From: a virus
DNA length: 35,061 nt
Direction: 5' to 3' (one strand)
IMG/VR virus record: IMGVR_UViG_3300046012_000198
Coordinates: 1-35,061 of that record
The translations under genes were made by a program, and so were the position numbers. Below are positions 115 to 32,819 of this stretch, one piece after another. Within the stretch, counting starts at the first letter, position 1. Each line of letters opens with the position of its first letter. Under the pieces are notes generated by a model, which made no database searches, was not told where the DNA came from, and saw only the letters and a program-made list of their open reading frames with translations.

Positions 115-334
115 CGGTGAATTCCCACACCCGGCACTGGACCTGTGGATACACCGGGTGCGGCTCGAATCGCTCGGTCGGGCGGTACACCATCGTGCGG
201 CCCTGATGCTCGGTCGCTCGTTGCTCGACCAACGCGTCGTCTTCGAAGTAGCACCAGCGGTCCCGGAAGCCACCCCGGAAGATGACCACCGGGCGCGCGG
301 TGTCCCAGGGGACCTTGCTAGCTGTTGTCGCCAT
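110..334 (-). CDS. small hypothetical protein downstream of RecT
   Basis: This is a 74-residue protein I do not recognise. The ATG at 334 lies inside the end of the recT gene (17-base overlap), so translation is probably coupled. It is rich in aromatic and basic residues (RWCYFEDD, MVYRPTERF) and has two cysteines, with no membrane segment. The stop lies within the hairpin at 73-114, which makes it the last gene of the early operon visible here. Upstream in-frame codons exist, but they are antisense-like Arg/Ser/Pro-rich sequence, so I chose the ATG at 334. Function unknown. Confidence 0.6.
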   Translation of the reverse strand: MATTASKVPWDTARPVVIFRGGFRDRWCYFEDDALVEQRATEHQGRTMVYRPTERFEPHPVYPQVQCRVWEFTG

Positions 335-1613
335 CGGGGTCGTCTCCGAGGTCGATCTCGGGCTCCATGTGCTCGGCCTCGTAGGCGGCGTCCAGCGCGG
401 CCTCCTGCTCCTCGTCAGACAGTACCCGGTCCTGGGGCTGCGCTGGCACGGCCGGGGCCGGCTCGGGCTGATCTGGCCCCGGCGCGGGCTCCTCGAACGC
501 GACCGCAGCACGCAGCTCGTCGGGCGTGGCGAACTCCAGCGGCATCACCGCGCCGCCCTGGATGGCCATCAGGACCGTCGGCAGGCGATCACCGTGCTTG
601 TCGATCGCCGCGTCACGCAGCGCCTTCCACACCGCCGTCTGACGGATCTTGGGCCGCGCGGTGCCCTCATCCTCGACCTTCGCCCTCACCGACTGCGACG
701 AGGACGGCTCCTCGGGCGCCTGGCTGGCCTCGGCCGCGTCGGCGGCCGCTTGGGCCTCCTGCTCCTCGGCTGTGGGCTCGGCGGCGCCGGTCTCGGGCTC
801 GACACCGCCGGTGCCGCCCGGCTGGCCGTCGAAGGCGTCCAGGGCGTCGGGGGACAGGTCGACCCGGATCGACTCGTCGGAGGCGATGGCCTGGGCGAGC
901 AGCGTCGACTTCGGCAGGAACTTGAACATCTGCCGTACCGCCGACTTGGTGGCCATCGCGTCGTAGTCGGTCGCCCACGGGGAGCGGGCGTTGCGCCCGG
1001 ACTGGCTGCGCAGCCGGATCCGTTCGACGTCGTCGCGGCCCATCACGTGGAACACCCGGCCGCCGTTCACCATCCGGGCCACGGCGTAGTACAGGATCGG
1101 CTTGCCCTTCTCGGCGTCGAACCGGGGCCGGTGGATCAGCTTGTCCTCCAGCCCGTACTCGATCTCGTACTCCTCGTTTTCGAAGATCGCGTGCGCCTTG
1201 ATCTCGGCGACGAGCTGGCTGCGCTGAGCCAGTTCGATCATGCCCTGGTAGCCGAGGATCCACTGTGCCTCATGCTGGCCGCGCCGGCTGTTGTGGAACG
1301 GCAGCACCCAGCCGTGCCCGAGCGCGGGCACGTTCGGGCGCAGCCCGAGCTGTGCGGCGGTCATCAGCGCGCCGAGCAGGGTCTGCTTCGTGCAGCGGAT
1401 CAGGTCCGGCACGGTGCGCACGGCGGTAATGGCGTCGCGGATGAGCTGGGCCGCCTCCAGGCCGCGCGGCATCGCGGCCTGGAACTGCTCCTGCATCAGC
1501 CACAGCTCAGCGGACAGGTTCGCGACCCGGTCGACTTCCTTGCCGGACTTGGCCGGTTCGAGGCCGGCGGCCGCTCGGGCGCGGTCGGCTGGGGTCTCGG
1601 TGGGTTCACTCAT
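318..1613 (-). CDS. recT: RecT-family single-strand annealing protein
   Basis: The 431-residue product is a RecT-type recombinase that coats single-stranded DNA and anneals homologous strands during phage recombination. The conserved core spans about residues 40-265. It includes the helical stretch after CTKQTLLGALMTAAQLGL, the GHGWVLPF strand, the LGYQGMIELAQRS block and the AVRQMFKFLPKS block near the core end. The C-terminus (about 280-431) is acidic, Pro/Ala-rich and probably flexible, so the protein is longer than RecT proteins of about 300 residues. The ATG at 1613 overlaps the preceding gene by 8 bases and follows a CCACCCAAGGAG leader. The YqaJ exonuclease gene (2204-3283) is the expected partner, as in exonuclease/annealing protein pairs. 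Confidence 0.93.
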   Translation of the reverse strand: MSEPTETPADRARAAAGLEPAKSGKEVDRVANLSAELWLMQEQFQAAMPRGLEAAQLIRDAITAVRTVPDLIRCTKQTLLGALMTAAQLGLRPNVPALGHGWVLPFHNSRRGQHEAQWILGYQGMIELAQRSQLVAEIKAHAIFENEEYEIEYGLEDKLIHRPRFDAEKGKPILYYAVARMVNGGRVFHVMGRDDVERIRLRSQSGRNARSPWATDYDAMATKSAVRQMFKFLPKSTLLAQAIASDESIRVDLSPDALDAFDGQPGGTGGVEPETGAAEPTAEEQEAQAAADAAEASQAPEEPSSSQSVRAKVEDEGTARPKIRQTAVWKALRDAAIDKHGDRLPTVLMAIQGGAVMPLEFATPDELRAAVAFEEPAPGPDQPEPAPAVPAQPQDRVLSDEEQEAALDAAYEAEHMEPEIDLGDDPDGDNS

Positions 1614-1887: not shown

Positions 1888-2207
1888 GTCGGCCGGCCGA
1901 ACAGCGCGAGCTGGGTCGGCGCGGCCACCAGGTGCCGCTGCCATTTCGAGGTCGGGTCGAATAGCGGCGGCTCGGCCGAGGTGTGGCAGTCGCAGGCGCA
2001 CCGCCAGATGTGGATCGGGCCGACCTCGACCGGACGGCCTTTGATCGTGACGACCTGCCCGGCCGGGTTGGTGAGGTAGCCGGCGGGGTGGCGCACGCCG
2101 AACTGGGCCGGGCCGCCAACCGAGCACTGACAGTCGTGGTGGCGTCCGAGCTGGCAATGCTGGGTCGGCCCCCACTCGCAAGGCGTCACTGGCCGACCTT
2201 TACTCAC
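1884..2207 (-). CDS. Cys/His-rich putative zinc-binding protein
   Basis: The product is about 107 residues long. The N-terminal third carries a dense Cys/His cluster (CEWGPTQHCQLGRHHDCQC), and a second cluster (WRCACDCH) lies near residue 70. This suggests one or two zinc sites formed by the paired clusters. Similar short Cys/His-rich proteins are common in Streptomyces phages, but I cannot assign the family with certainty. I chose GTG at 2207 because it overlaps the stop of the exonuclease gene (GTGA), the coupling used elsewhere in this operon. A GTG at 2189 with an AAAGG upstream is an alternative. Possible roles are DNA or protein binding in the early region. Confidence 0.7.
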   Translation of the reverse strand: MSKGRPVTPCEWGPTQHCQLGRHHDCQCSVGGPAQFGVRHPAGYLTNPAGQVVTIKGRPVEVGPIHIWRCACDCHTSAEPPLFDPTSKWQRHLVAAPTQLALFGRPT

Positions 2208-3283
2208 GGTGCCGTCGTCCACTGCCAGTTGCGCCGGTACCGCAAACCGCCCGGCTCGGTCAGGGCCTCCGGGTGCGCCTCGATCAGCGCCTTCAGCCCC
2301 GCCGCATCCAGCGTCGGCTTCGGCCGCGAGTAGTCCTCAGCCCACTCCGGGTGGGCCTTCTGCCAGTCCTTGTTCGCGCCGTCGATCTGCTTACTCGGGC
2401 GCCACGACGCGATCGGGGTGCCGTCGGGCCAGGTCAGCTCGGTCGCGTTGCCCAGGACCGCCTGAAGCTCAGCAACCAGGCCGTTGTACTCGGCCTCCAC
2501 GGCTGCCTTCTCGGCATACAGCTTCTGCGCGCGCCGGACCTTGTCGCCCAGCTCGTCGGGCAGCTCCCGCACCTCACCTGGCTGCGCGTCGGTGTACAGC
2601 AGCTTCAGCAGGCCCGTTGACTTCTCGCTTGGCGCCGGGGGCAGGTCGCCCAGTACGTGCTTGGCCCACCAGTCATCAACGACGGTGAAGATCCGCCGGA
2701 TCAGCTCCTCGTCGCGACCCATCAGCCGGTGCTCGATCTTGAACCGGGGACCCAGGGCCAGAAAGTGGATGTGATGGCGGCCGGTCACGCCGAGCTGGTG
2801 CGCCCCGGTGAACTGAAACGCCGTCGGCACCTCGTCCTCACCGTCAGGGCCGAACCACTGCGACAGGTCGCCTTGGGTCTTGACCTCGATCAGGCACTTG
2901 CCCTGCGGGCAGATCGACAGGGTATCCACGCTGGCCCCGGCGTAGGGATTGATCCGGGAGCGGAGCAGCCCGCAGCGGCGGGTCTCGATCGGGAAGCCGG
3001 CGAACCGTTCAGCCCACAGGCGGATGATCTCCGGTTCGAAGATCTGGCCCCGGGCCATCGCGTCGTTGGCGGCCTGGTCGGGGGCGCGGCCGGTCTTGTC
3101 GGCCCACAGGCCGAACTCGTCACGGTAGGAGGACTGGCCGAACAGCACGGCGACGTCTGAGGCGCCGATGAGTTTGCGCCGTTCAGCCAGCCACACCGCC
3201 CGTTCGACGTCGACGCTGCACACGAGCTGCCCGCCGGGGGTCGCCCACGGGCGGATGATCTGCTTGGACAGGGGTTGCGGCAT
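2204..3283 (-). CDS. YqaJ-like (lambda-exonuclease fold) recombination nuclease
   Basis: The 359-residue product looks like a YqaJ/lambda-exonuclease-family nuclease of the PD-(D/E)XK superfamily. It would resect double-stranded ends to make single strands for RecT. Visible motifs are IGASD at 39-43, RGQIFEPEI at 78-86 (acidic residue E83), an Asp at about 120 and the E133-V-K135 catalytic core. An AFQFTGAHQLGVTG segment follows, typical of the helix after the core. The C-terminus has a coiled stretch (about 215-255). I chose the ATG at 3283 because AAGGGAG lies 7 bases upstream; the longer in-frame start at 3319 would overlap this ribosome site. It sits directly upstream of the recT cluster. 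Confidence 0.88.
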   Translation of the reverse strand: MPQPLSKQIIRPWATPGGQLVCSVDVERAVWLAERRKLIGASDVAVLFGQSSYRDEFGLWADKTGRAPDQAANDAMARGQIFEPEIIRLWAERFAGFPIETRRCGLLRSRINPYAGASVDTLSICPQGKCLIEVKTQGDLSQWFGPDGEDEVPTAFQFTGAHQLGVTGRHHIHFLALGPRFKIEHRLMGRDEELIRRIFTVVDDWWAKHVLGDLPPAPSEKSTGLLKLLYTDAQPGEVRELPDELGDKVRRAQKLYAEKAAVEAEYNGLVAELQAVLGNATELTWPDGTPIASWRPSKQIDGANKDWQKAHPEWAEDYSRPKPTLDAAGLKALIEAHPEALTEPGGLRYRRNWQWTTAP

Positions 3284-3299
3284 GACGGTCTCCCTTGGG

Positions 3300-4328
3300 T
3301 CAGGACTCGACGAGGTCAACGACGTCGTCCCAGCGGTCCGAGACGCCCTGAAGCTGCGCCCGGGCGATCGAGCGGATGTCTTTGCGGGCCTCGAACTTGT
3401 CGTCGTCGACGAGCCCAGCGATGGTGTCGCTGATCAGTGCGTCCAGTGTCGCCGGGTCCAGGGCGTCCAGCTCCCATGACTGCCGGCCGTACGCGGCGAT
3501 GTAGCTCTCGATCCGGGAGTCGGTCAGCTTCGCCGGGTTCGGCGGCGGCTGATACTCGCGGATCTGGTCCATGTTCAGCGCGATGCGGGTGATCTCGATC
3601 GGCGCCGCACCCTGCATCACCTCAGGGTTGCCGGTCAGGAACCATTCGCCAACCTGGAACGCGGCGTCATCCCAGTCGACCGACTCGTCCGGGTCGTCGT
3701 CCAGCTCGACACCCATCGAGGCGTGCAGGTCGGTGTAGGCGAACTTCGTCAGCCGGTCCTGGATGTCTCGGGTCATGTCGATACCGGACGGGTCGTGGTC
3801 ACCGAGATGGATCACCACGACCCGCTGCCCGGCTTCGATGTGGCCCATGAACCGGCGTGCGGCGCCCCACATCTCCGACTGCGACACGTAGCCCCGGCAG
3901 GAGAACCAGGGGCAGTCCCAGGGTTCGGCCGCGCGGGCGACCACGCCGGCCAGGGCTTCCTTCTCGACCCACACCTCGACCCGCAGGTCCTGGTCTTCCC
4001 AGAGGTCGACGTGGTACTGGTCGGCGACGGCCTGCACGATCTCGGCCGGGCTGTTCCACCGGGAGCGGCTACGCAGGTTGCGGGTTCGGTCGGTGATGTG
4101 GTCCCAGTCGATCAGCCCGGCCAGACGGGCACTGTTCACGATCTCGCCTAGCCGCTTGTAGTTGTTCTGGGTGTTCGCGAGCCAGCCGCGCTGCACGAAC
4201 TGGTAGTAGAGCTGGCGCAAGGTGAGGTCGTAGCCCTGGGCGGCGTAGTCGGCGGCCAGGTCATCAGCGCGGCGCACGATGGCCATGGTGGCCGCCTGAG
4301 GCGCCCAACGGGTGTACTGGATCTTCAC
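3300..4328 (-). CDS. topoisomerase VI subunit A / Spo11-like Toprim protein
   Basis: The 342-residue protein has the layout of Spo11/TopoVI-A proteins: a winged-helix-like N-terminal part with LRQLYYQF (37-44), then a Toprim domain. In TopoVI-A the equivalent Tyr attacks DNA. The Toprim signature is visible as E122 in VWVEKEAL and D177-x-D179 in HLGDHDPSG. This shorter phage form lacks a partner B subunit in the window, so it may be a DNA-cleaving or nicking factor rather than a full topoisomerase. I chose GTG at 4328, which follows AAGGAG by 6 bases; the first in-frame GTG at 4352 lies before this site. It starts a transcription unit behind operator-like site 2. Confidence 0.8.
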   Translation of the reverse strand: MKIQYTRWAPQAATMAIVRRADDLAADYAAQGYDLTLRQLYYQFVQRGWLANTQNNYKRLGEIVNSARLAGLIDWDHITDRTRNLRSRSRWNSPAEIVQAVADQYHVDLWEDQDLRVEVWVEKEALAGVVARAAEPWDCPWFSCRGYVSQSEMWGAARRFMGHIEAGQRVVVIHLGDHDPSGIDMTRDIQDRLTKFAYTDLHASMGVELDDDPDESVDWDDAAFQVGEWFLTGNPEVMQGAAPIEITRIALNMDQIREYQPPPNPAKLTDSRIESYIAAYGRQSWELDALDPATLDALISDTIAGLVDDDKFEARKDIRSIARAQLQGVSDRWDDVVDLVES

Positions 4329-28464: not shown

Positions 28465-28689
28465 CTACTCCGATGCCGGCTCGTTGCGGGCGATCGAGGC
28501 GTTAGCCCACATCACCGTCTCGTCCAGCTTCGTCAGCGCGATCGACTTCTCACGGCTGTCCGGGCAGTGCCGGTCCAGCAGCGTCGCGAACGCCCGCCCG
28601 GCTTCGCGGATGTCCTGATAGCGGTTGATCTGATCCGGCTTCGGCGGATGGTAGGTGAACCGTCTTGCCAACTCGCTCAGCCCGATCAT
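28465..28689 (-). CDS. acb2: Acb2/Tad1-hairpin-like anti-CBASS sponge protein
   Basis: The 74-residue protein has the diagnostic layout of Acb2. An N-terminal FTYHPP (11-16) is followed by RYQDIREAGRAFATLL. The conserved C-terminal helix runs SREKSIALTKLDETVMWANA (45-64) and continues SIARNE. Acb2 proteins form hexamers that sequester cyclic di- and trinucleotides and so block CBASS and related signalling. The start overlaps the MuF polyprotein stop (ATGA), so it is made late with virion proteins from this operon. Recognition of the family is from the motif; activity is inferred. Confidence 0.85.
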   Translation of the reverse strand: MIGLSELARRFTYHPPKPDQINRYQDIREAGRAFATLLDRHCPDSREKSIALTKLDETVMWANASIARNEPASE

Positions 28690-31600
28690 TCGCCGGACGC
28701 CAGCGAGTGCAGACGCAGCCGCGCCTTGGCCCGGCGCAGCTTCAGCTCGTCAGTGACAGGCGCGGCCGCGACCTTGCTGCGGTCGATGGTCTCCATCATC
28801 GATGCGACCAGGGTTTCGAAGTCGCTGCGGGCCACTTTCGCCCCGGACGGCAGCGTGATGTCGTTGTCGGGCTCGGGTGGGTAGACGATGCCGGCCGCGA
28901 CCAGGGAGGTCTGCTCGCCGTTGGCGTCCAGCCCGACGATCGGGGAGATCCGCTCGACCGGGAAGCTGCCCTGGTTGACCGCGAGCGCGGCCACCAGCTT
29001 GCGGTTCGGGGACCGGCCGCGCCAGTCCCCGGAGAGCTGCCCGGCGGCCATCAGCTCATCGACCTTGTGCGGGTCGATGCCGTGCAGGAGCTGCCCGCAG
29101 ACCTGGATGCCGTAGTCGTCGTAGTAGGCCCGTACCGGCGCGGCGATCGAGGAGGTCCGGTCGTAGTGCTCGATCGCGCCGCGCACGCCACCGGCGCCGT
29201 AGTGCCCGCCGCCGACGGTGATCTTCCCGACCTGGATTGGGCCGTCTTCGGTGACGACCTCCCCGAGGTGGAACATCGAGAAGTCATCCCCCTCGGGGAC
29301 GGTCACGCACATGCCGGTCTCGGCGAGCTTCGCGACGTGGCACACCCCGAACGCGCCCAGGTGCCCGAAGATCTGCCCGGTCTCGCGGTCGAGCTGGATC
29401 GCGGTCGGCCCGTCCAGGGTCTGCTTGCGGAAGAACTCGGCCCGGTAGGGCTGGGTGTAGGACGACGCGAGCAACGCGAAATCCTCGTCGACGGTGTCGG
29501 GCATGGGCTCGCCTTCCGCGAAGGTCTCAGAGGTCGCCGCCAGCCCGGCCGGCGGGGCCTCGTCGCTGCCGGGCTTGTTCGTGGAGGTGGCCGGCGGCGG
29601 GACGAGGCTGCTGATCGGCACGGTCATCGTGACCGGGTTCTCGGGGTCGTCATCGGCATCGTTGTCGCCGTCGGGCAGTAGTTGGACATCGACGGTCGCG
29701 GCCTCGGCGTTGATCGCGGTGATGGCGCCCGTGTCGTCGTCGCCGTCTCTGTCAACGTCGCCCAGGCCGACGACGTCACCGACCGCCACGGTCGAACCGT
29801 CCTGAAGGGTGATCGAGTCGCCGGCATCGGCCAGCACCGGCCCCTCCGGGGTGGCCCCGGCGAAGTCGCCGGGGATCATCATGTCGGCCGCGCCGGGCTG
29901 GACCTCTGGGGCCGGGTCGTTGACGATCCGGGCGAGCGGGAACGCCTGCACCGACACCAAGGTCGCCCCGCAGAACTCCCACTCGACGGCGACAGCGTTC
30001 ACACCGTCCGGGTCGCCCTGATACAGGGCCGGGTCGATCGGGTTGCCCTCGGCGTCGGCGAACCCGACTGCTGTCGGGACGATGTCCACCGAGATCATGC
30101 CGAGGCCGGCGTCGACTTGGGCCATGGCCTGCTGCGCGTCGAAGTTCAGCATCGGGTCCATGTAGTCACCCGAGCCCCACAACACGTCGCCTCGGTCCTC
30201 GACAGCCAGGATCCGGCCGGTGATCGTCGAGTCCTCATGGCCGTAGCCGGATTCACGCTGCCACGACAAAGGCAGCGGCAGTGGGCGGATGGTGCCGCCG
30301 CCGGCCTTGATGATCCGCCCGTCGGAGGACGGGATCCCGAGCTGCGCGAGCGGCCCGGACCAGGTCTGCCCGATCGGGGTCAGATCCGGTGACAGCGCGG
30401 TCGGGGTGTCCCCGCCGGTGGCGGACCCGTCGTTGCCCGGCGCGACAACGTCGGCTGGCGGCGCGGTGGGCGCTGGTGTGGTCACGGGGGCCTCCGTTGC
30501 GGCGGTCAAGGACTGGTCGGTCAGGTCGATGTGATCGGCGCCCCAGGCGAGGATGAGCCGGTCGTAGGTGAGGGTCTGCCCGGCGGCCAGCTCCGGGGGC
30601 AGCGGTTTCGCGGCGTTATAAACCAAGGCGGTATGCGGGATCCAGACCGGGAACGTCGTCGAGGCGAGCCCCCCGATGGCGTCGCTGATGCCTTGGTGCG
30701 CGGCGGCCAGCTCGTCGGACTGCACGAGCAGCACCGAGCAGGGCTCCCTCTCGGGGTCGCTCGCGTTGAATACGGCTGTGGCGAACGCCTTGGCCGGCAC
30801 CGGCCCGGTCCATGCCGAGGCGAGAGCTTCGACCAGGCCCGCCTTGACGTCGTCGCTGTACTCGACGGCGTCCTTGGCGAGGTAGCCCAGGGTGCAGTGC
30901 AGATCCTCGGGTGCTTCCCCGCCGGGCTGGGCCAAGGTGGCGGCGTCGGCGGCCGACAGCATCGCCATGACAGCCACACCCGTCGGGGCGTCCTGCACGT
31001 CGTCAGCCACGGGTGCAGTGTCCGCTGGGGCGTCCACTGCGAACCCGTCCAGGAAGTAGATCGTCTGCGACGGTGCGCCCGAGCCGGCAGCGACCAGTTG
31101 CGTCTCCAGCTCCTGGGCCTGCTCCTGCACAGCCGGCGGCGCGTCGGCCGGGATGTCGAACGTCATCGTGCACCGGCAGTTGGCTTGTATGATGCCGTTG
31201 CCGATGTACCAGCCGTCCCCCGAGTCGAGGTTGTAGACGTGCGCCGCTACCAGATCCCGCTCGACCTTGACGATCTGTTCAACCGTTACGACGGCGGGGA
31301 GTCGGTCAAGGCGCTCGCCGAGCGCTTCAAGGTCAGCAGAACGGTCGTCATCAGCCGTCTCGAAAAGAGCGGACGCAGCACGCGTACCCGCAGTGAGGCG
31401 ATGAGCGAGCGCATGCGCACCGCGACCAGTGGTGAGCGTCGCGCCCTGGCCTCGGCCGCCAATCTCGCCCGGCGCACCGGCAACCATCAAGACGCGGGGC
31501 GGCCCGGATATGGCGGCCGGGCCGCGATCACCGGCGCTCTCACTCGAAGCCGCAAGATCGGCAAGGGCGAAGCCGAGATGCGTGACCTCCTCATCGGTCG

Positions 31601-32819
31601 CGGCCTCGCCGTCGATGAGCAGGTGCCCGTCTACGGGTACAACCTCGACTTGGCCATCGGCGCCGTCGCCGTGGAAATCTGGTGGGCTAAGTCGTACCCG
31701 CTGCGGGTCGGCCACCAGGCGCGCCGCGCGCTCGACCTCGGCGATCTGGGCTGGTCGCTGATCTACATTTGGTGCGCCCATGTCCTGCCCGGCCTGGGTG
31801 CCGCAGACCAAGTGGTCGCCCTTCTGGAACAGGCTGGCAGCCACCCAAGCCCCGGAAACGCTCAATATCGGGTGGTTCGGAGTGACGGCGAGCTTGTGGC
31901 CGGTGGCCGTCTCGATGCGGATGATCTCGCCCTCGTACCACCGGCGGGTGACCGCGCGTAGTCCCGGCATCTCGACTCGCGTGTCTCCGAGCACGCAGTT
32001 GCACACGTTCGCGGCCGAGCCGTCACCTGGGCCGCTGACCTGTTCGCCGCCGACGGTGAACGACCCGGTGATGGCCACGGTCTGCCCGTTTGCGGCGGCA
32101 TGCTCGGGGCGTGTGCGCCCGTCCGGGGTCGACAGCCAGGTCTTGGTCGCGGTGACACCGGCCGCATCAGCCATGGCCGACCACGACGCGAGCGCGCCCT
32201 GGTTGTTGGCTGCGACAGTCTCGGTGCGGGCGATCAGCTCGGCCCGGTTCGCCCACGACGGGTAACCGGTGTCAAGCATCGACTGGACCTCGGCCTGGGC
32301 GTCGTCGACGTTCGTGCCGGTCGCGTTGGCCAGGTCGTCGAGCTTCGTGCGGAGCTGCGAGGTCACCGCGTCGGGGATGTGCACGAGGATCTGGCGGCGG
32401 TCGGCCAACCATTGGCTGCGCCACGCCTGCACCGCGTTGGCCACGACCGGGTCCGCGAGGCCGGCCTGGGTGATGGGGCCGAGCATCGCCGAGTACGCCG
32501 GCATGATCACCCCGTCCAGGATCGGCTGCCACCGGTTCGGGTCGGAGATCATCAGGGTGTAGATCCGGTCGGCGTCGCGCTGGGTGAACGGCTGCGGGAC
32601 CGGCTGGGGGGCGGCGTCGGCGACGAGCCGTGAGATCGGGCCGGTGTTGATCGGCTGCGCGTCCAGCTCAGCGCGCAGCAGGGCGAGGTACTGCCCGAGC
32701 GCGTCCATCAGCACCGGCATGAACTGGGCTTCGCCTCGGGCGTAACGCTGGATCGCCTGCCGCGCGAACAGGGCCTGCCGTTCGGGCGTGACCGTCATCG
32801 GCCACGTGGTCCTAGCCAT
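28686..32819 (-). CDS. MuF / 2H-phosphoesterase / prohead-protease polyprotein with intein
   Basis: The 1377-residue precursor (1104 after splicing) holds several parts. A helical MuF domain (about 1-274) contains TGYPSWANRAELIARTETVAA and STPDGRTRPEHAAANG. An intein (275-547) follows, then the rest of the MuF CxCRC motif at 548. A 2H-phosphoesterase-like domain (about 605-765) has H641-C-T-L and H729-T-A-L. A capsid maturation protease-like domain (about 830-965) includes IIKAGGGTIRPLPLPLSW, GHEDSTITGRI and DAGLGMISVDI. The long C-terminal region (about 1050-1377) is typical of actinophage MuF/protease fusions, with FGHLGAFGVCHVA. It lies between portal and capsid genes and is required for head assembly. 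ATG at 32819 overlaps the preceding gene by 8 bases. Confidence 0.88.
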   Translation of the reverse strand: MARTTWPMTVTPERQALFARQAIQRYARGEAQFMPVLMDALGQYLALLRAELDAQPINTGPISRLVADAAPQPVPQPFTQRDADRIYTLMISDPNRWQPILDGVIMPAYSAMLGPITQAGLADPVVANAVQAWRSQWLADRRQILVHIPDAVTSQLRTKLDDLANATGTNVDDAQAEVQSMLDTGYPSWANRAELIARTETVAANNQGALASWSAMADAAGVTATKTWLSTPDGRTRPEHAAANGQTVAITGSFTVGGEQVSGPGDGSAANVCNCVLGDTRVEMPGLRAVTRRWYEGEIIRIETATGHKLAVTPNHPILSVSGAWVAASLFQKGDHLVCGTQAGQDMGAPNVDQRPAQIAEVERAARLVADPQRVRLSPPDFHGDGADGQVEVVPVDGHLLIDGEAATDEEVTHLGFALADLAASSESAGDRGPAAISGPPRVLMVAGAPGEIGGRGQGATLTTGRGAHALAHRLTAGTRAASALFETADDDRSADLEALGERLDRLPAVVTVEQIVKVERDLVAAHVYNLDSGDGWYIGNGIIQANCRCTMTFDIPADAPPAVQEQAQELETQLVAAGSGAPSQTIYFLDGFAVDAPADTAPVADDVQDAPTGVAVMAMLSAADAATLAQPGGEAPEDLHCTLGYLAKDAVEYSDDVKAGLVEALASAWTGPVPAKAFATAVFNASDPEREPCSVLLVQSDELAAAHQGISDAIGGLASTTFPVWIPHTALVYNAAKPLPPELAAGQTLTYDRLILAWGADHIDLTDQSLTAATEAPVTTPAPTAPPADVVAPGNDGSATGGDTPTALSPDLTPIGQTWSGPLAQLGIPSSDGRIIKAGGGTIRPLPLPLSWQRESGYGHEDSTITGRILAVEDRGDVLWGSGDYMDPMLNFDAQQAMAQVDAGLGMISVDIVPTAVGFADAEGNPIDPALYQGDPDGVNAVAVEWEFCGATLVSVQAFPLARIVNDPAPEVQPGAADMMIPGDFAGATPEGPVLADAGDSITLQDGSTVAVGDVVGLGDVDRDGDDDTGAITAINAEAATVDVQLLPDGDNDADDDPENPVTMTVPISSLVPPPATSTNKPGSDEAPPAGLAATSETFAEGEPMPDTVDEDFALLASSYTQPYRAEFFRKQTLDGPTAIQLDRETGQIFGHLGAFGVCHVAKLAETGMCVTVPEGDDFSMFHLGEVVTEDGPIQVGKITVGGGHYGAGGVRGAIEHYDRTSSIAAPVRAYYDDYGIQVCGQLLHGIDPHKVDELMAAGQLSGDWRGRSPNRKLVAALAVNQGSFPVERISPIVGLDANGEQTSLVAAGIVYPPEPDNDITLPSGAKVARSDFETLVASMMETIDRSKVAAAPVTDELKLRRAKARLRLHSLASGE
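31188..31193 (+). promoter_or_regulatory. possible -10 for the antisense endonuclease
   Basis: TATGAT matches TATAAT at 5 of 6 positions and lies 46 bases upstream of the GTG at 31239. It falls within the DNA encoding the intein C-terminal junction. No good -35 is visible, so this is only a hint of independent transcription. Confidence 0.25.
31239..31961 (+). CDS. antisense homing endonuclease (HTH plus Vsr/EDxHD-like) nested in the intein
   Basis: This 240-residue gene lies wholly inside the intein, on the opposite strand, with codons exactly opposite the intein codons. The N-terminus (PLDLDDLFNRYDGGESVKAL) and AERFKVSRTVVISRLEKSGR form a helix-turn-helix typical of phage homing endonucleases, and a SEAMSERM segment follows. 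The C-terminal part resembles the Vsr/EDxHD nuclease fold: KGEAEMRDLL (E111/E113), YGYNLDLAIG (D137), AVAVEIWW (E146) and LGWSLIYIW. The usual Gly-Gly-x-Trp-His after E146 is replaced by WAKSYP, so activity is uncertain. GTG at 31239 has GAGG 8 bases upstream. The recognisable domain (1 to about 185) fits the gap between the Hint halves; the last 55 residues are antisense to Hint blocks A/B. By my rough hand count, third-position G+C is higher on this strand than on the intein strand. Confidence 0.75.
   Translation: MRRYQIPLDLDDLFNRYDGGESVKALAERFKVSRTVVISRLEKSGRSTRTRSEAMSERMRTATSGERRALASAANLARRTGNHQDAGRPGYGGRAAITGALTRSRKIGKGEAEMRDLLIGRGLAVDEQVPVYGYNLDLAIGAVAVEIWWAKSYPLRVGHQARRALDLGDLGWSLIYIWCAHVLPGLGAADQVVALLEQAGSHPSPGNAQYRVVRSDGELVAGGRLDADDLALVPPAGDRA

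Follow-up and report, generated by a model that had tools for sequence, protein, structure and literature searches.

A phage MuF intein with a putative homing endonuclease gene on the strand opposite its splicing element

Results

An intein interrupts a phage MuF gene

We analysed the full length of a 35,061-base virus record, IMGVR_UViG_3300046012_000198, hereafter the window; the features of the locus are collected in Table 1. A gene for a MuF-type minor capsid/head morphogenesis fusion protein contains an intein whose sense frame is stop-free from 31179 to 31997 (minus strand; 273 aa), reads CVLGDT...TPNHP...AHVYNL...GNGIIQAN and is followed directly by Cys. It thus has what marks a Hint intein, namely Cys (or Ser) at position 1, blocks A, B (TxxH), F and G, and a terminal Asn before Cys (or Ser or Thr), with Cys in both places here. 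The sense product matched Pfam Intein_splicing (E 1.7e-7) and scored above the cut-off of TIGR01445 intein_Nterm (NCBI). In its AlphaFold2 (AF2) model, the Hint halves were confident (pLDDT >85 in N and C blocks), and the best Foldseek matches of this model were inteins, including MxeGyrA and MtuRecA, as expected for a Hint fold. The open 273-aa frame and the profile matches bear out an earlier note on this DNA, which had read a complete Hint intein here.

The same note had seen neither a LAGLIDADG nor an HNH motif in the linker, and indeed profile searches with the sense product returned no endonuclease family, LAGLIDADG and HNH included. The sense linker (residues 124-218) was disordered in the AF2 model. 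An endonuclease encoded in the sense linker was rejected on the basis of this predicted disorder and the lack of any profile or fold match. The intein therefore lacks the same-frame nuclease between Hint halves that marks a conventional endonuclease-bearing intein.

Elsewhere in the MuF fusion protein, residues 601-771 matched the PHROG family 'RNA ligase' at E 2.7e-20; a match of this region to Pfam Acb1 was weak (E 0.14). The region may be a 2H phosphoesterase. The window also encodes a RecT-like annealing protein (318-1613, minus strand) and a RecE-like exonuclease (2204-3319, minus strand). No RNA families or tRNAs were found in it.

Table 1. Features of the MuF intein locus and of the gene antisense to it (window positions).
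Feature	Position	Strand	Remarks
MuF-type minor capsid/head morphogenesis fusion gene, intein host	28686..32819	-	1377 aa; Phage_Mu_F E 6.4e-9; PHROG head/portal families
Hint intein	31179..31997	-	273 aa, Cys1 to terminal Asn, then Cys+1
Intein block A, CVLGDT	31980..31997	-	
Intein block B, TPNHP	31869..31883	-	antisense is nuclease strand 'YRV[VI]R'
Sense motif DFHGD, in linker	31665..31679	-	opposite nuclease catalytic A-V-E; codons locked by both strands
Intein block F, AHVYNL	31227..31244	-	antisense is nuclease Shine-Dalgarno and start codon
Intein block G and junction, GNGIIQAN / C	31176..31202	-	antisense is -10-like element
Antisense gene, HTH + DUF559/Vsr/EDxHD-superfamily nuclease	31239..31961	+	240 aa, GTG start, TAG stop
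Nuclease HTH DNA-binding module	31263..31370	+	HTH_7 residues 9-35, helices 10-43
Nuclease catalytic core (predicted)	31560..31781	+	conserved E111, Y134, D137, E146, R163
Nuclease Shine-Dalgarno, GAGG	31227..31230	+	opposite block-F Asn-Leu codons
-10-like element, TATGAT	31188..31193	+	45 nt upstream of start; relatives have TGNTATAAT there; weak match here

A nuclease-like gene lies antisense to the intein

The codons of the plus-strand gene are exactly opposed to those of the intein, and both frames are open over 31239-31961, in keeping with the earlier reading. The GTG start and GAGG ribosome site also stood, with GAGG lying 9-12 nt upstream of the GTG. The gene had been placed exactly within the linker. 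The linker is covered, and in addition the open reading frame (ORF) extends past it, opposite block B, to a stop 13 codons from the intein N-terminus, while its start and Shine-Dalgarno (SD) sequence lie in block F.

The window nuclease matched HTH_7 (E 1e-4) and REase_MTES_1575 (E 0.003), single-sequence scores that fall below the Pfam cut-offs. A profile of the nuclease family matched the solved nucleases 3hrl (DUF559-like; E 1.2e-6) and 3r3p, which is I-Bth0305I (E 2e-5), as well as HTH proteins. REase_MTES_1575 was matched by 11 of 26 aligned members, and Y134, D137, E146 and R163 were invariant in this alignment; since its 26 rows were too diverse for pattern scans, a closer subset was used for these. 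The AF2 model of the nuclease combined an HTH bundle with an alpha/beta nuclease core (mean pLDDT 77.8), and its top two Foldseek matches in the PDB were again 3r3p and 3hrl (probability 1.0 each, with E-values >0.001). The input alignments of the AF2 models were shallow (9-10 sequences). Members of the family carry one to three HTH modules as accessory DNA-binding domains, and because this number varies, differences in intein linker length track the antisense domains; one nuclease (L008:4001-5089) has three in tandem.

Profile and Foldseek comparisons thus both placed the catalytic domain in one nuclease superfamily. Of the EDxHD signature, the A-[VI]-E strand and a Glu (query position 154) could be aligned, and the residue of I-Bth0305I corresponding to D137 of this family is Ala. 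The active-site positions fit the DUF559-like D...VE arrangement of 3hrl better than strict EDxHD or I-Bth0305I, and we therefore name the nuclease by superfamily rather than by the EDxHD family. Taken together, the profiles and the model make the antisense product look like a homing endonuclease of the DUF559/Vsr/EDxHD superfamily, which would cleave DNA. The HTH plus Vsr/EDxHD-like product proposed earlier is upheld by homology in both sequence and fold, with the EDxHD signature matched only in part; endonuclease homologues were found for the plus-strand product and none for the sense linker, so that this claim survived the comparison suggested for it.

The linker evolves as the antisense gene

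Third-position G+C over 31239-31791 was 0.84 in the plus frame and 0.68 in the minus frame, so that the earlier hand count (about 83% and about two thirds) was right. We used a non-redundant set of 142 related inteins ranging from Actinobacteria to enterobacterial phages, 140 of which were tested for openness. The opposed nuclease frame was open in 138/140, with 2 stops observed against 383 expected from extein codon use, and it remained open in phages of 42-50% GC.

When codons are opposed, substitutions at sense position 1 often leave the antisense product unchanged, and those at sense position 3 often leave the sense product unchanged. In a two-strand substitution test on 23 independent pairs, we counted single changes altering only the sense product (Ns) or only the antisense product (Sn). 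The linker gave 830 Ns vs 314 Sn, whereas the exteins gave 194 vs 1157; the intein C-block (32 vs 134) and N-block (125 vs 257) were counted in the same pairs. Linker and exteins differed with a Fisher P of 5e-202, and 22/23 pairs were individually concordant. Pairs and loci are unequally related, so that P values are indicative; the signs replicate across phage groups. These counts identify the linker as an antisense gene and the exteins and C-block as sense genes, with the N-block serving both.

The linker therefore evolves as an antisense gene, and the opposed ORF is open far beyond chance. The earlier suggestion of constraint on the plus strand is confirmed by the linker counts, and relatives were found to keep the nuclease frame rather than a conserved sense linker with a broken plus frame. 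That the antisense frame is open and conserved merely through conservation of the sense intein in a G+C-rich genome is extremely unlikely. The opposed-codon phase and high GC do favour long antisense ORFs, and opposite block B the nuclease C-terminus follows the sense constraint; in the linker, however, the constraint is on the antisense frame, which stays open even in the phages of lower GC, encodes a product with nuclease homologues and a confident fold, and has free-standing counterparts in which the opposed frame is closed. The substitution test refutes this explanation for the linker; it holds partly opposite blocks A-B.

Nor is the sense linker entirely unconstrained: almost every intein of the family retains its DFHGD motif. 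The F-H-G of this motif is opposed to A-V-E of the nuclease. The A-V-E codons GCC, GTG and GAA are each used in 130/132 sequences; at other positions of these nucleases, GAA accounts for 41% of Glu codons and GTG for 17% of Val codons. This codon fixation indicates that both strands are constrained at DFHGD.

Putative expression signals of the nuclease gene coincide with splicing blocks

The nuclease start codon lay opposite one block-F residue, usually His, in 127/142 inteins (ATG 90, GTG 33, TTG 4), and a start was found within five codons of this position in 141/142, the exception (L008) having no ATG, GTG or TTG there. Where the His is replaced by Gln, the codon is CAA and hence the opposed start is TTG. 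Where it is shifted by one codon (L002, L036, L127, L149), the start shifts along. An SD sequence, GAGGTT, lies opposite block-F Asn-Leu in the family, and two loci with differing block-F amino acids (L032, L033) nonetheless have an SD-like run. Codon choice in the sense frame was biased accordingly: block-F Leu was CTC/CTT in 94% vs 38% in exteins (P 3e-42), and block-F His was CAT in 89 and CAC in 32 vs 332 and 764 in exteins (P 3e-20).

Opposite block G, a -10-like element was found, mostly 45 nt upstream of the nuclease start. A perfect extended -10, TGNTATAAT, was present upstream of the start in 21/142 loci vs 0.03-0.4% of background windows, and Ile at N-3 was encoded by the rare codon ATA in 41% vs 9% (P 2e-12). 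Synonymous codon bias at these sites thus supports the start, the SD sequence and the -10 element in turn. In the window, the start is GTG, the -10 match is weak and a sigma-70 promoter scan found none, so that the argument for a promoter rests on the relatives.

A conserved -10-like element and SD sequence within a late gene would also suit an antisense unit that mainly regulates MuF by antisense RNA, the nuclease being secondary or inactive. We regard this as very unlikely: regulation by RNA requires no ORF, and the antisense amino acids are under purifying selection, with the catalytic-type residues D137, E146 and R163 invariant in 26/26 nucleases.

Inteins and free-standing relatives in other phages

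By tblastn, the antisense protein was detected in 102 public phage records and the sense intein in 119, and antisense matches lay opposite a MuF/head gene in the records examined. The hosts include Salmonella, Escherichia, Pantoea, Klebsiella, Edwardsiella, Cronobacter, Pseudomonas and Vibrio, together with Idiomarinaceae, Aggregatibacter, Gordonia and Mycobacterium. Vivi2 and Sedona, phages of Gordonia (G. terrae), and E. coli phage Snoke are among the intein-bearing phages. Scans of IMG/VR and GTDB yielded many more family loci, plasmids a single match. A single-sequence IMG/VR query with the window nuclease confirmed no close relatives. A MuF intein in a Helicobacter prophage (L210:1510-3288) keeps a long antisense nuclease-like ORF.

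Among 80 loci recovered with the sense query, the nuclease frame was interrupted by a stop in only two, L126 and L180, the latter on the same contig as L007. In L007 (4001-4822) and L126, one in-frame nuclease stop each accompanies an open intein, reflecting either early nuclease loss or sequencing error. Such stops are what a degenerate element would show, its mobility over and its nuclease decaying. With 138/140 nucleases intact and under purifying selection, decay is disfavoured for the family and improbable in the extreme.

Free-standing relatives were also found. The Acinetobacter phages IME285 and BUCT629 (obolenskviruses; L207:1801-2694, L208:455-1348) carry an annotated 297-aa nuclease relative. 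Along its full length, this protein shares 32% identity with the antisense nuclease of Aggregatibacter phage S1249 (L030), of which the Aaphi23 nuclease is an identical copy. The Acinetobacter gene has 12 stops in its opposed frame and is convergent with an intein-free head gene, ending ~42 bp from its CKC motif. Similarly, in L065 a free-standing nuclease gene (2327-3193) converges on an intein-free MuF gene (3682-3137) and ends 13 bp from an uninterrupted HPGCRC insertion site; it is possibly a precursor or a derivative. These free-standing genes use GCG-CTG-GAA or GCG-GTT-GAA rather than GCC-GTG-GAA, the codons locked in the intein being released. Caulobacter phage C1 gp458, with free-standing HTH repeats and no catalytic core, was not counted. 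The earlier note had proposed insertion of a free-standing endonuclease into the intein; convergent relatives beside intein-free MuF genes agree with this, the direction of the event being conjectural.

Phage endonucleases are able to exclude competitors. This, and the presence of free-standing relatives beside MuF in L065, L207 and L208 without an intein, would fit a real but standalone selfish or defensive nuclease gene, one that shuts out competing phages or nicks DNA elsewhere, for which the intein is merely a safe harbour. Such an account is unlikely, since nearly all relatives lie inside MuF inteins (85/86 matches to the nuclease query have an open opposed sense frame, L065 being the exception), and precise empty sites together with intein transfer between genera fit homing.

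The empty sites were identified in relatives. Many Jersey-like phages have an uninterrupted MuF gene, and E. coli phage LotteLoewe_Bas71, a relative of Snoke, likewise carries no intein. When the joined intein flanks of phage sam were aligned with intein-free SaTp-04, 600 nt aligned with no gap; the intein is thus absent at an exact codon boundary in a sister allele. Comparison of MuF alleles with and without the intein, suggested earlier as a check, therefore gave a gapless empty site in relatives; for the window MuF no close intein-free sister was found. Between genera, the inteins of Snoke (Kagunavirus) and sam (Jerseyvirus) share 95.7% identity vs 68.9% for their N-exteins, and L223 has exteins closer to those of sam (86.9%) with a less similar intein (89.7%). 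Inteins were also found at other MuF sites, in fEg-Eco06 at TSTT/CRARDG and in Sejanus at WV/CTIDGKTR (L032, L022), not at HPNC/RC, which suggests that the element is capable of moving to a new site. Intein-free alleles and intein/extein incongruence indicate mobility as read from sequence comparison; the incongruence could alternatively arise from ordinary recombination.

Discussion

Computation gave both reading frames, the strand under constraint in each region, the conserved start signals, the fold and homology of the nuclease, the empty sites and the incongruence. In the light of these, we consider it very probable that the locus is a mobile intein and that the strand opposite the splicing element encodes its homing endonuclease. 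A late minus-strand MuF transcript would be translated through the Hint domains and the linker, and self-excision of the intein would restore MuF at the conserved ...N/CRC site. Plus-strand transcription would start from a promoter with its -10 opposite block G, and translation from the ATG/GTG opposite block F, guided by the SD sequence opposite block-F Asn-Leu. The HTH plus DUF559/Vsr-like nuclease would then bind and cut intein-free MuF at or near the insertion site, and break repair templated by the intein-bearing phage genome would copy the whole two-strand element. The RecT-like and RecE-like genes of the same phage could have a role in this repair. With its own promoter, the nuclease may be made independently of the late genes. 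The element may have arisen from a convergent nuclease gene, once free-standing, through invasion of a Hint element or fusion with one.

It is also probable that these loci represent an unrecognised class of intein, coded on both strands over nearly the full length, in which blocks G, F and B double as promoter, SD/start and C-terminal strand, FHG and AVE are locked codon by codon, and nuclease expression is decoupled from the late structural operon. Long antisense gene pairs with both products demonstrably selected are rare and disputed. Here a dual-coded pair recurs in ~140 divergent loci of phages, and the compromise between the two codings can be followed at each site, codon by codon. The origin of an overlapping gene becomes directly testable and, because the nuclease occurs both free-standing and dual-coded, the cost of overlap becomes measurable. 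The arrangement suggests that a homing endonuclease need not belong to an intein in order to mobilise it. Gene finders miss this large phage nuclease family, which is absent from most annotations. Compact dual-strand inteins may be of use in protein-splicing and nuclease engineering.

Like inteins of the PI-SceI and PI-PfuI type, the element has Hint halves, an endonuclease within the intein DNA, a conserved site in an essential gene and empty alleles. In PI-SceI and PI-PfuI, however, nuclease and intein form one polypeptide encoded on the same strand, whereas the antisense nuclease described here would be a separate protein initiated at its own start codon, and disorder is predicted for the sense linker. 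The catalytic domain resembles that of I-Bth0305I, an EDxHD enzyme of a group I intron, and DUF559 3hrl in profile and fold, and N-terminal DNA-binding modules are likewise present. Unlike I-Bth0305I, the host element is an intein, the gene is antisense and the catalytic positions are nearer those of DUF559/3hrl. Dassa et al. (2009; cited in PMC12350094) reportedly described 'fractured gene' split inteins, phage-associated and with a Vsr-related homing endonuclease; the genes are said to be split, with the nuclease between the halves. If so, the present loci differ in that gene and intein are each unsplit, with the nuclease overlapping them.

None of the open-access papers searched described an intein with a nuclease gene antisense to it. 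The intein of the Jerseyvirus 'intein-containing capsid morphogenesis protein' (PMC8425127) belongs to the same intein family and occupies the same MuF site. The passages on this protein and the records examined, including that of E. coli phage Snoke, give the sense intein only and no antisense nuclease.

The closest published parallel is the antisense homing endonuclease genes of nuclear rDNA group I introns, Dsq.L2066 of Didymium squamulosum and Dir.S956-2 of D. iridis, for which expression from their own promoter has been proposed (PMC9548176). Common to both systems is a nuclease gene antisense to the splicing element that it would mobilise. In the Didymium introns, the other strand encodes a ribozyme and rRNA, and the nuclease gene lies in a peripheral loop (PMC9548176). 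In the phage inteins, by contrast, both strands are protein-coding over ~240-300 codons, and the splicing blocks appear to double as expression signals.
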